Source: a virus. From it: a stretch of 24,844 nucleotides of DNA. The position numbers and the translations under genes were made by a program. The notes below the pieces were generated by a model. The model was not told the DNA's origin and did not search any database. It saw only the letters and a program-made list of their open reading frames with translations. Positions 324-4,799 of this stretch are shown piece after piece. The stretch is from positions 1 through 24,844 of the IMG/VR virus record IMGVR_UViG_3300028897_000746. One strand, written 5' to 3'. Position 1 is the first letter of the stretch. Each line of letters begins with the position of its first letter.

Positions 324-740
324 TTATCTTGGAACGTCTGCGCAAATTTCTCCAATTTGTGGATTTCTAATACCAATCTTTCGCAAAGATCTTCGAATCT
401 CTGCTTTGAATTCTCCTAAAGTTTGATGTTCTTCCATTGCAAATGGAGACTTTCCAACAAAGAAAGCTCCTATTTCAAAGTCACTTGCGTAGGTTAAATC
501 TGTTTCCTCTTCTAAAAAAGTCATGAAAACTTCAGCGAATATTTGTATGTCACTAAGAAGTTCTTCTGGTGTTTTATACTCAAGAAACACTTCTGGAAAA
601 ACATGAGTTGAAGAATATTTATCCCAGATGCGATTCAGTAACTTTTTCTTTCTCTTGATTTCAGAGATATTTAAGTCAATTCCCCACGCAACAAAGCTAG
701 TACTACTCGAGTTAGTTACAAAATCACACCTTATTTTCAT
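324..740 (-). CDS. FVTNSSSTSF N-terminal-motif protein B, 138 aa
   Basis: Starts MKIRCDFVTNSSSTSFVA. A longer in-frame reading back to 866 exists. I reject it because the internal ATG at 738-740 has a GGGAG site upstream, forms a TAATG junction with the preceding gene's stop, and puts the family motif at residue 1. After the motif come charged helices, then a segment reading roughly IGAFFVGKSP, then a C-terminal part with TLGEFKAEI and a short GIRNPQIG tail. Protein C has a matching order (a hydrophobic VG strand, an E-x-x-E/K helix, then a G/NI-x-x-P-x-I tail), so B and C are the closest pair. No catalytic motif seen. Function unknown. Confidence 0.85.
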   Translation of the reverse strand: MKIRCDFVTNSSSTSFVAWGIDLNISEIKRKKKLLNRIWDKYSSTHVFPEVFLEYKTPEELLSDIQIFAEVFMTFLEEETDLTYASDFEIGAFFVGKSPFAMEEHQTLGEFKAEIRRSLRKIGIRNPQIGEICADVPR

Positions 741-1253: not shown

Positions 1254-1661
1254 TCACGTGTTAAACCAATTTGTTAAGATTTTGGGTCTCGACTTTATGT
1301 TAAACTTGTCTTTCGCTAACTTAAGCACTTCTCTCAACTCTTTCATTGAGAATTTCTCTTCTCTGTACTCGATAAGTTCGTCATTTGCTATAGAAATTCT
1401 CATTCCAACAAGTATAGTATCTTCATCTGGTGCGCCATGTTCCTCGCCAATCTGAAAACTTATTCCGTTATAACCAAAATGTCTTAGGTCATTGAATAAG
1501 TCTTCAGCATCTTCATCACTTAGTGTTTTAGGATCTTTTCCAAAAACTTTCGAAACTAATTCCTTTTGTCTTGAATAGACGTTAGGAAACTCTACCGCCC
1601 ATCCAATCATAACAAAGCTCGTGGAAGAGCTATTTGTTATAAAACAGCTTCTTAGTTTCAT
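1254..1661 (-). CDS. FVTNSSSTSF N-terminal-motif protein C, 135 aa
   Basis: Starts MKLRSCFITNSSSTSFVM, a slightly diverged copy of the family block (D to C and V to I). The start at 1659-1661 is chosen over an upstream in-frame ATG at 1707 because it aligns with the other family members and has a TGGGGA site. The body contains an acidic segment (DPKTLSDEDAEDLF), a strand around TILVGMRISI and a C-terminal helix followed by IKSRPKI, resembling the end of protein B. The first 32 bases overlap the end of gene D in another frame. Function unknown. Confidence 0.85.
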   Translation of the reverse strand: MKLRSCFITNSSSTSFVMIGWAVEFPNVYSRQKELVSKVFGKDPKTLSDEDAEDLFNDLRHFGYNGISFQIGEEHGAPDEDTILVGMRISIANDELIEYREEKFSMKELREVLKLAKDKFNIKSRPKILTNWFNT

Positions 1662-2112
1662 CAGAAATCCCCATTTCTCTGAAAAGTCTACCCATTTCTT
1701 CATGGTCACGTTGACGACCAGTTTTGGTCTTAAAGTCTCCTAAGTCCAAAAAGAAGGACTTTTCACGAAGAGCATATCCTTCTTTTTCTGTATCTACAAA
1801 TTGCGAAATTCTAAGTCCTCTGTGACTCCAGTCAGTATTGTTACATGTATCTACTCGGACATGAAACCAATCCCGATAAATGTAAGTCGTATAATTGGTT
1901 GTCCAAGGAATGATTATATTTCCACCGAACGTTTTGTTTCGCTTTAAGAACTGATTCATCCTCCTTTTTGACGGGTGCGTTTCTCTCCAATCTTCTTTCC
2001 ATTCAGCAAAGAAAATCTTTAACATATCTCTAGCAACTTCTATTGGAGTCGTATATCTGATTATGAATGAAGTGTTAGAGCTATTAGTTACAAAATCAGT
2101 TCTTAGTCGCAC
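1630..2112 (-). CDS. FVTNSSNTSF N-terminal-motif protein D, 160 aa, GTG start
   Basis: Starts at a GTG (2110-2112) and reads (M)RLRTDFVTNSSNTSFII, the family block with one Ser to Asn change. The GGAG site 8 nt upstream lies inside the end of the alpha-CTD gene, which overlaps by 10 bp. The body differs from A-C: it is rich in Trp, Arg and Asn/Thr (for example WTTNYTTYIYRDW) and looks mostly beta in the middle, with a helical C-terminus. No known domain recognised. Its 3' end overlaps the start of gene C by 32 bp, unusual even for this compact operon. Confidence 0.85.
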   Translation of the reverse strand: MRLRTDFVTNSSNTSFIIRYTTPIEVARDMLKIFFAEWKEDWRETHPSKRRMNQFLKRNKTFGGNIIIPWTTNYTTYIYRDWFHVRVDTCNNTDWSHRGLRISQFVDTEKEGYALREKSFFLDLGDFKTKTGRQRDHEEMGRLFREMGISDETKKLFYNK

Positions 2113-2564
2113 TTGACATCTCCTATACTCATTCCTAGTTCGAGGTCCTTCTCTTTCAGTTTTTCTACAACTTCAGTCAAGCTTTTCCTGCCAAACTTCT
2201 GAGTTGCTAAGAGCTCTGGCATAGTTTTTCTTACAAGTTCTCCAACTGTCTCAATCCCTGCATGACGAAGACAATTAGAAGTTCTTACAGAAAAATCAAA
2301 TTCATTAACATGTACATTAAGTATTGGCAAACTCTCTTTTGAAAACTCTTTCTCAAGGAACTTAAACAACGTTTCCCAAAGACTAGAGAAGTTAACTTGT
2401 TTACCTCGAGTAAGTCGTTCACCTGTACCGGCTTTCTCTCTAAAAACGCATACCCAGACTTTTTCACCTGATGATCCACTAATTTCTATATGTTGGTCTC
2501 CATGAGTAGCGAAAAAACAGTCAGCTTTCATTCTTACTCTCTTTTCTACTTTTGGAAAGTCCAT
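2103..2564 (-). CDS. Phage RNA polymerase alpha C-terminal-domain-like protein, 153 aa
   Basis: Residues about 80-147 match the C-terminal domain of bacterial RNA polymerase alpha, the part that binds UP-element DNA, activators and sigma region 4. Reading against E. coli alpha: VRTSNCLR (93-100) equals VRSANCLK, so R94=R265, N97=N268 and C98=C269. FGRKSLTE (124-131) equals LGKKSLTE, so G125=G296, K127=K298 and S128=S299. The 31-residue gap from R94 to G125 equals that from R265 to G296. Acidic E88/D90 fall where E. coli has D259/E261, the sigma-contact patch. The N-terminal 80 residues are not the alpha assembly domain and are not recognised. The ATG has a strong AGGAGG site. Likely role: a transcription modulator acting on host RNA polymerase or promoters; this part is inference. 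Confidence 0.88.
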   Translation of the reverse strand: MDFPKVEKRVRMKADCFFATHGDQHIEISGSSGEKVWVCVFREKAGTGERLTRGKQVNFSSLWETLFKFLEKEFSKESLPILNVHVNEFDFSVRTSNCLRHAGIETVGELVRKTMPELLATQKFGRKSLTEVVEKLKEKDLELGMSIGDVKCD

Positions 2565-2573
2565 AACATCCTC

Positions 2574-3554
2574 CTATAATCCATAAGGACAAGTCGTTGG
2601 ATTTTTAGACAATTTCTCTCTAACTTTTTGGAAAGGTTCTCCTGATTCCCAACAAGTTTTGATGTTACTTTTATCAAGAGGTAACCCATGAATATTCGAG
2701 TCAGCAAAAGAGCAAGGAACTAGCTTCATGTTGGGCGTGATATACACAGACATTCGACCACTTTCGCAAGAATCTAAGTACAATTTCTCTTCTTCTGTTA
2801 ACCTACTCACTTTATTAACTCTATTCACTAAACAACTATCCATCCCCACTTTAAACTTACATAGTCCTTTTCGAGCGAGTTTAATAAAGTGACTTACCAT
2901 ACGATCCTCAACTTGCCAGTGACCTAAGTTCTTAGCTCTACCTTGAGGTTTGAATAGCAAGAATATCACAGCGTTTAGTCGATCAACGTCAACCATTCCT
3001 CTCCATACATCTTCACCTTTCAATATTTGTAAAACTCGAATAAAAGAAGAAGAAGAAAAAAGAAAATGGATATTTGTTTTAATTCCTGCATCCATAAGAG
3101 CTTCTAGAGCCATGTAAGTGTAAGTTTGTCTGTAATCAGAAACAGCTACTGCGCCACATTGTTTAGAGATTTCAACTTCATCTTTGGTAAGAAGTCTTCC
3201 AGATGTAGTGTAGTTGGGGACAACTATATTCTTAACTGAATATTCCACTATCTCTTTGAAGTTCTTGTGTTTATTTGGATCTCCTCGACCGCCTAAAGCT
3301 ATCTGGTTTACAAAAGGTTTACCTTCGTTAATGATACGCTTGTAATCCCCTAACTCCATGTTTGTCTCGTTCTTATCACCCTGGTAACAAAAATAACATT
3401 CGTTGTGACAATGGCCCATTATACCACAGTCAATCATACATGGAAAGTCAAGTCGAAAAGGATCTGGGTGACCATTTATTCCTTGTATAACTTCGAATCC
3501 AGTTTCCGTATCAAAAATTGTAGAATAAGTCTCGGTTCTGAACAACTTGATCAC
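2574..3554 (-). CDS. Radical SAM enzyme with SPASM-like C-terminal domain, 326 aa
   Basis: Carries the radical SAM iron-sulfur motif CxxxCxxC as C49-x3-C53-x2-C56 (CHNECYFC), followed by a GGRGDP segment (88-93) where the SAM-binding GGE motif belongs. The C-terminal third has six cysteines (232, 241, 263, 281, 301, 322), including CESGRMSVYITPNMKLVPC, typical of the SPASM/twitch auxiliary-cluster region of peptide-modifying radical SAM enzymes. The GTG at 3552-3554 is preferred because it lies 6 nt from AAAGGAGG; a TTG two codons earlier directly abuts the site. Family knowledge: such enzymes usually modify peptides or RiPP precursors. It is the second gene of the leftward operon, 9 bp before the alpha-CTD gene. 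Its substrate is unknown; the neighbouring NSSSTSF proteins are a testable guess. Confidence 0.88.
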   Translation of the reverse strand: MIKLFRTETYSTIFDTETGFEVIQGINGHPDPFRLDFPCMIDCGIMGHCHNECYFCYQGDKNETNMELGDYKRIINEGKPFVNQIALGGRGDPNKHKNFKEIVEYSVKNIVVPNYTTSGRLLTKDEVEISKQCGAVAVSDYRQTYTYMALEALMDAGIKTNIHFLFSSSSFIRVLQILKGEDVWRGMVDVDRLNAVIFLLFKPQGRAKNLGHWQVEDRMVSHFIKLARKGLCKFKVGMDSCLVNRVNKVSRLTEEEKLYLDSCESGRMSVYITPNMKLVPCSFADSNIHGLPLDKSNIKTCWESGEPFQKVREKLSKNPTTCPYGL

Positions 3555-3566
3555 AACCAACCTCCT

Positions 3567-3900: not shown

Positions 3901-4173
3901 ATGGATGTTCAGAAGAAGTTACAGGAGATTTACGCCAGAGAACAAAGAGGAAAAGGACAGCCAGTGGCTGGAACAGGCGGAACTGATTACTGTACATGTC
4001 CTAATAAGAACTGCGAATTATATAAGAAACTTATTGCTCACAAAAGAGGAGTTCCATGTAATGTGATGAAATGTAAATCTTGTGGGCAACCATTAACTGG
4101 CGTAGGAACAATAGGAACAAAACTAAAGGTGGGTGAAAGTTCCTTTCTAGACAGTTACTTAGAGAAACTATGA
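3901..4173 (+). CDS. Small zinc-ribbon-like protein, 90 aa
   Basis: First gene of the rightward block, with an AAAGGAG site 6 nt before the ATG. Cysteines at 31, 33, 38, 53, 58 and 61 plus H47 form a pattern CTCP-x3-C ... H-x5-C-x4-C-x2-C, which strongly suggests one or two bound zinc ions. The segment HKRGVPCN followed by CKSCGQPLTG is typical of zinc-ribbon proteins. The N-terminal 30 residues are a charged helix and a Gly-rich linker. Its stop overlaps the start of the HAD phosphatase gene (ATGA), so translation is coupled. Role unknown; DNA binding or assembly are both possible. Confidence 0.82.
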   Translation: MDVQKKLQEIYAREQRGKGQPVAGTGGTDYCTCPNKNCELYKKLIAHKRGVPCNVMKCKSCGQPLTGVGTIGTKLKVGESSFLDSYLEKL

Positions 4174-4799
4174 TCATCGACCATTACCTAGAGCAAATAC
4201 AAGCAGATGAGCAAACTTCTGCTGCTTCAGGAATCACTGGCTTTGAAACGCCCCATAAACGAAAAGTTCTTAGAACTTATTATCCTAGACTTTTAACACA
4301 AAAGAAAGATGAAGAAGACGAAGAAGATGAATCTCTACCACATAAAGTTATGGGGTATCAACCATCGCCAGCTCCTATACATTTTGAGGCTAAATCGTCT
4401 GAAAATAAACGGTTAATGGTAGACTTCGATAGAACGATTCATAAGTACTCGAAAGGTTACCATGATGGAACTATCTATGACGAGCCAATTCCAGGAGCTA
4501 AAGAAGCTCTTGACATACTTCACAATAGAGGTTACGAAATTGTAATTTTTACTGCTAGAGGTTCTAGTGAAAACGAAGATCGAACATCTCAGGTAAAAAA
4601 TGTAGAAAAATGGTTGAAAAAGTACGGGATTTATTACGATAGAATAACATCTGAAAAACTTCCAGCTTTTGCCTATATAGATGACCTAGCAATCAGGTTC
4701 AAAGGAAATTGGAGAGATACTCTCAGAGATATAGTTGGGACAGAGATAACGATCAAAACTAAAAGGTACATAAGTGCTGATGATTACGCTTTTTACTAG
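4170..4799 (+). CDS. HAD-family phosphatase with acidic N-terminal extension, 209 aa
   Basis: Residues about 80-190 carry the haloacid dehalogenase motifs. Motif I is DFDRT (nucleophile D85, acid/base D87). Motif II is the threonine in FTARG (T128). Motif III is probably K163. Motif IV is the DD pair 171-172 in YIDDLAIRF. The short insertion between motifs and the SQVKNVEKWLKKYGI helix resemble small phage and bacterial HAD hydrolases that act on nucleotides or sugar phosphates; the substrate cannot be read from sequence. The first 80 residues are an unrelated, probably disordered region with an acidic run (KKDEEDEEDE). Translation is coupled to the zinc-ribbon gene through ATGA. It lies 14 bp before the tail tube gene, an odd place for a phosphatase. 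Confidence 0.85.
   Translation: MIIDHYLEQIQADEQTSAASGITGFETPHKRKVLRTYYPRLLTQKKDEEDEEDESLPHKVMGYQPSPAPIHFEAKSSENKRLMVDFDRTIHKYSKGYHDGTIYDEPIPGAKEALDILHNRGYEIVIFTARGSSENEDRTSQVKNVEKWLKKYGIYYDRITSEKLPAFAYIDDLAIRFKGNWRDTLRDIVGTEITIKTKRYISADDYAFY

Follow-up and report, generated by a model that had tools for sequence, protein, structure and literature searches.

A phage gene joining an RNA polymerase alpha-CTD to an N-terminal domain of no recognised family

What use would a phage have for a single domain of the RNA polymerase alpha subunit? The question is raised by a 153 amino acid protein encoded on the minus strand of a 24.8-kb fragment (24,844 nucleotides in full; hereafter the window). An earlier note, made from the letters alone, had read it as an alpha-CTD placed on a new N-terminal domain. 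The source is a large bacterial virus, and the features that matter here are as follows.

1254..1661, minus strand: gene with an N-terminal MKLRSCFITNSSSTSF motif, starting at an internal ATG (ORF, motif)
1630..2112, minus strand: gene with an N-terminal MRLRTDFVTNSSNTSF motif, downstream of the alpha-CTD gene (ORF, motif)
2103..2564, minus strand: alpha-CTD fusion gene, 153 amino acids (ATG-start ORF, Shine-Dalgarno sequence, PF03118 match)
2124..2342, minus strand: alpha-CTD, residues about 75-147 (PF03118, phmmer against PDB, Foldseek, AlphaFold2 pLDDT)
2172..2192, minus strand: G125-E131, equivalents of G296, K298, S299 and E302, second DNA-contact loop (alignment)
2283..2285, minus strand: codon for R94, matching R265 of E. 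coli alpha (alignment)
2331..2528, minus strand: N-terminal domain covering residues about 13-78, with a predicted fold of beta4-alpha type (AlphaFold2 models)
2570..2575, minus strand: Shine-Dalgarno sequence AGGAGG, 5 nt 5' of the ATG (sequence)
2574..3560, minus strand: radical-SAM protein gene directly upstream of the alpha-CTD gene (PF04055, phrog_7293)

The fusion protein and its neighbours

Judged by sequence and predicted structure, the C-terminal half is a genuine RpoA-type alpha-CTD, as the note had claimed. The Pfam family RNA_pol_A_CTD (PF03118) matches residues 75-138 over positions 4-67 of 67 (E=2e-21; 75.9 bits, cut-off 23.8), and solved alpha-CTDs in the PDB were matched at up to 7e-15 by phmmer; PHROGs gave no match to the fusion protein. 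An AlphaFold2 model built from 55 aligned sequences has a pLDDT of about 86-92 across residues 81-140, and Foldseek superimposed the predicted fold on the E. coli alpha-CTD with an rmsd of 0.5-0.8 Å (TM by target 0.81-0.97, tight pairs), the matches including a CAP-DNA complex and the alpha-CTD/sigma4/UP-DNA structure 3n97.

Alignment to E. coli alpha equates R94 with R265, N97 with N268, C98 with C269, G125 with G296, K127 with K298, S128 with S299 and E131 with E302, the R-to-G spacing being 31 residues in both proteins. The contact residues and loop spacing listed in the earlier note are thus in place, and Foldseek returned alpha-CTD itself, not the generic helix-hairpin-helix fold with these residues buried that the note had named as the contrary outcome. 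The 265 determinant (R265, N268, C269, N294, G296, K298, S299, E302) is complete except at the DNA-contact position N294, which is lysine here (K123) and asparagine in 52 of 54 other phage copies. The 261 determinant is acidic (E88, D90), bearing out the predicted sigma-contact patch, and acidic residues occupy positions 259 and 261 in about three-quarters of the phage copies as well. The 287 determinant is retained only in part (T114, M115, P116, E117); neither this nor the change at N294 was in the note. The missing assembly domain was correctly called: the protein is only 153 residues long, profile searches gave no alpha-NTD match, and its best score of 80 does not reach the RpoA equivalog cut-offs of 227-523 bits.

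Alpha-CTD matches in proteins other than RpoA occur in about a quarter of 40 genomes of Acidobacteria and Deltaproteobacteria, and score 22-47 bits. Since the window protein scores 77.7 bits, its copy seems still close to a working RpoA domain. The closest cellular alpha-CTDs among the matches listed belong to RpoA of these same two groups (up to 58% identical), a kinship to be taken as a guide only. A tree of so short a domain places the window copy weakly with other phage copies and names no donor.

For residues 1-78 no match was obtained in Pfam (at E up to 10), PHROGs or the sequences of the PDB, in agreement with the note's description of this part as unrecognised. Two AlphaFold2 models concur on four strands and one helix (beta4-alpha) with only moderate confidence (pLDDT 66 in one of them). 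The best Foldseek match in the PDB, to MRP1/2 (2gje, rank 1), has E=0.08; none is significant, and the top 50 also hold 2gia, 2gid twice, PURA, MoSub1 twice and WHY2. A viral structure library gave weak matches only. These models point weakly to a nucleic-acid-binding fold of the PC4/Whirly/PUR type, and we treat the likeness to PC4, Whirly, PUR and MRP as a lead and not a finding because this topology was already in mind before the Foldseek list was seen. Sequence comparison lent no support to membership of the PC4 family, since neither human PC4 nor MoSub1 showed any similarity.

The alpha-CTD gene starts 9 nt beyond the radical-SAM gene, with which it is presumably co-transcribed, and its stop end shares 10 bp with the gene at 1630..2112. 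The radical-SAM assignment comes from PF04055 (E=2.5e-6, slightly under the cut-off) and phrog_7293 (2.1e-25), and relatives of the protein, 46-52% identical, are found in 10 IMG/VR contigs. In one relative of the phage (L123, 3721-5546) the radical-SAM gene is interrupted by a stretch that encodes an ORF of 239 aa and may be a mobile element or carry an intron-borne endonuclease. Small proteins encoded at 1630-2112, 1254-1661 and 324-740 (minus strand) share an N-terminal MK(I/L/V)(K/R)xDFVTNSSSSSF-like motif, and proteins of this type come after the radical-SAM gene both in the window phage and in relatives (L117-L123). They belong to no Pfam family, and a literature search found the motif in no paper; one idea is that they might be a modification target of the radical-SAM enzyme. 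A motif common to the alpha-CTD protein (MKADCFFAT at M12) and these proteins was considered and dropped, M1 being the better start and the match short. Further along, a HAD-type phosphatase gene (4170-4799; phrog_1238), kept in relatives, adjoins the tail genes.

Other phage proteins with an alpha-CTD

The earlier note had known of no described system of this kind. As to publication this stands, for no study of phage-encoded alpha-CTD proteins was found in the open-access literature, and as a class such fusions are apparently undescribed; the protein is not a one-off, however, since at least 64 distinct IMG/VR proteins and one from Bacillus phage vB_BmeM-Goe8 share the domain. When IMG/VR was scanned by alignment, 182 viral contigs proved to encode an alpha-CTD. 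Eighty were retrieved (L005-L084), giving 64 distinct complete proteins; L058 and L072 were excluded from the class counts. None of the 80 loci has the look of a full RpoA. The median size is 154 aa, and the domain lies at the C-terminus in 50 of the 64 and at the N-terminus in nine.

PF03118 was confirmed by Pfam in all 54 proteins scanned. Nine of these also carry Sigma70_r4, while Mor, HTH_17, HTH_3 and KORA occur in one protein each; the partner domains that are recognised are mostly transcriptional. Sigma region 4 and the alpha-CTD contact each other at UP-element promoters. The loci L024, L032, L056, L059, L063, L074 and L080 join a sigma-70 region-4-like HTH to an alpha-CTD; at L060 (5069-5377) a 103-aa protein has four cysteines in a zinc-ribbon-like pattern ahead of it. 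R265 is retained in 53 of the 54 copies, and G296, S299 and E302 in every one. Because the search patterns covered the scored residues, each half was rechecked on the proteins that only the other half's pattern had found: 36 of 37 such proteins kept R265, and 9 of 9 kept G-K/R-S-E.

Dozens of other phages carrying similar fusions indicate that phages repeatedly reuse the alpha-CTD. None of the proteins of L005-L084 has the N-terminal domain of the window protein, and no close full-length relative of it was found in IMG/VR. In INPHARED the sole clear phage relative is the Goe8 protein, annotated 'RNA polymerase subunit alpha', with weaker ones in Microbacterium phages and Mycobacterium phage Zenteno07. 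Most INPHARED and plasmid matches were bacterial rpoA by annotation or inspection and were removed as host contamination. Another 50 phage records with an alpha-CTD were searched for a beta subunit gene (PF00562), and none has one; this suggests that such proteins as a rule act with the host polymerase and that the class as a whole needs no phage polymerase.

Relatives of the phage and their polymerases

The terminase identifies 25 relatives in IMG/VR at 48-65% identity, and some of their contigs measure 236-245 kb. PF00562 beta was present in five of five relatives searched, twice in four of them, the reading frames being about 1020 and 1370 aa long; these are one-piece beta genes, seen at L134 and L135 of relative G008 and also in G014, G021, G022 and G024. 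Eight of ten relatives have beta', and Pfam confirmed both subunits in G008. The relatives thus encode two multisubunit RNA polymerases, from which we infer that the window phage has its own. No alpha (PF01193) was found in ten relatives and no sigma70 region 4 in five. Polymerases of jumbo phages have been described as without alpha (PMC7598289), and the mReC jumbo phages of Weinheimer and Aylward (2020) encode beta and beta' of a multisubunit enzyme (PMC7481178); the lineage of the window phage resembles these, its beta and beta' being seen in relatives, outside the 24.8-kb window. This context, missing from the earlier note, bears most on the actions that the note proposed for the protein, namely competition at UP elements, tethering of another factor or redirection of polymerase.

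The alpha-CTD was found in none of 32 related records, most being fragments, and the relatives' polymerases therefore seem functional without it. Several relatives have the FVTNSSSSSF genes immediately after the radical-SAM gene, and in L119 what follows it is a different 94-aa gene with no similarity to our N-terminal domain; in the window the alpha-CTD gene occupies this place. Because the relatives vary here and none of the 32 records has the domain, the gene is most simply an accessory insertion at a variable site. Its GC and GC3 match the phage and give no sign of recent arrival.

Possible action and comparison with known systems

The alpha-CTD binds A/T-rich DNA in the upstream part of promoters through its minor groove and turns a face toward sigma region 4, and both surfaces are, by alignment and model, retained here. 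The small predicted beta4-alpha domain replaces the assembly domain, so the protein cannot enter core polymerase as alpha does. Our preferred reading, which we hold tentatively and at somewhat short of even confidence, is a DNA-binding, sigma-facing alpha-CTD mimic working at host promoters. As a separate protein it would bind upstream promoter DNA beside sigma4 and displace the host alpha-CTD there, altering the output of the host polymerase during infection, perhaps most strongly at genes driven by UP elements, rRNA operons among them; the N-terminal domain may add dimerisation or a second contact with nucleic acid or protein. We prefer this because the retained surfaces fit upstream DNA and sigma4 and because the relatives own polymerases: with two of their own, interference with the host enzyme need not cost the phage. 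DNA binding, sigma contact and competition with the host alpha-CTD are all put forward on this footing. The lysine at the N294 position counts against it. The gene lies among virion genes, so its expression might be late, poorly timed for taking over the host unless virions carry the protein in.

The same surfaces would serve an activator that draws the host enzyme to promoters of the phage, with the alpha-CTD resting on sigma4 and the N-terminal domain on phage DNA. The acidic sigma-facing patch agrees with this, as do the many other phage alpha-CTD proteins with a DNA-binding partner (sigma70 region 4, HTH, Mor), but here the N-terminal domain belongs to no recognised DNA-binding family and the relatives' own polymerases should lessen the need for host recruitment; we consider it rather unlikely. 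Those polymerases, with beta and beta' detected and alpha and sigma region 4 absent from the relatives searched, and with jumbo-phage enzymes described as lacking alpha, suggest instead a factor that serves the phage polymerase at promoters, the protein's N-terminal domain docking on the alpha-less polymerase while the alpha-CTD contacts upstream DNA. This seems unlikely, since the domain is absent from the relatives' records, though mostly fragments, and the other alpha-CTD phage records have no beta gene.

Still less probable is reuse of the domain simply as a compact helix-hairpin-helix unit that binds DNA and plays no part in transcription, which may be the case in BREX PglW. Bacterial non-RpoA proteins with alpha-CTD-like domains do exist, PglW included (PMC12839542), and the change at N294 together with the partial loss of the 287 determinant amounts to some drift; yet the bit score and the retained 261 patch put the protein much nearer RpoA than those bacterial proteins, and phage partners, where recognised, are mainly transcriptional. 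We give the least credence, regarding it as quite improbable, to a broader proposal in which these proteins are a widespread and so far undescribed group of phage transcription factors, the domain having been combined time and again with new domains, with HTH or with sigma region 4, and in which the window protein restores an alpha-like upstream contact to the phage polymerase.

For phages the alpha-CTD appears to be a movable part, present in dozens of distinct proteins and in some joined to sigma region 4. If it is true that the fusions act at promoters, they would be a compact means to capture or block bacterial transcription. The window lineage is the sharper case because no alpha was found beside the relatives' phage polymerases.

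Compared with bacterial RpoA (PF03118), the window protein has the full-length domain, its fold and, except for N294, its DNA-contact and sigma-facing residues; it differs in being phage-borne, in its 153 aa, in having neither alpha-NTD nor linker, and in its unrelated, predicted beta4-alpha domain. Phage T4 acts on this surface too, its Alt and ModA proteins ADP-ribosylating R265 of alpha. Phage Rac is reported to cleave host alpha (PMC7552054). All three resemble our protein in being phage actions upon the host alpha subunit, but they are enzymes that modify or cut it, whereas the window protein would be a non-enzymatic extra copy of one domain. BREX PglW likewise has an alpha-CTD-like domain within a non-RpoA protein (PMC12839542), but it is a large kinase/nuclease defence protein and the similarity is weak (NCBIfam E=0.038).

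Similar in design is the 210-aa protein of Goe8 (QDP42789.1), also phage-encoded and with its alpha-CTD C-terminal to a non-alpha part; it has another N-terminal domain, comes from another phage family, and no published study of it was found. In Bacillus phage SBSphiC this N-terminal part is a free 144-aa protein without an alpha-CTD, so that a modular build is visible in the Bacillus phages. The IMG/VR proteins (L005-L084) share with ours a mostly C-terminal alpha-CTD in a small protein, and differ in their partners, which vary from sigma70 region 4, HTH and Mor to domains of no recognised family.
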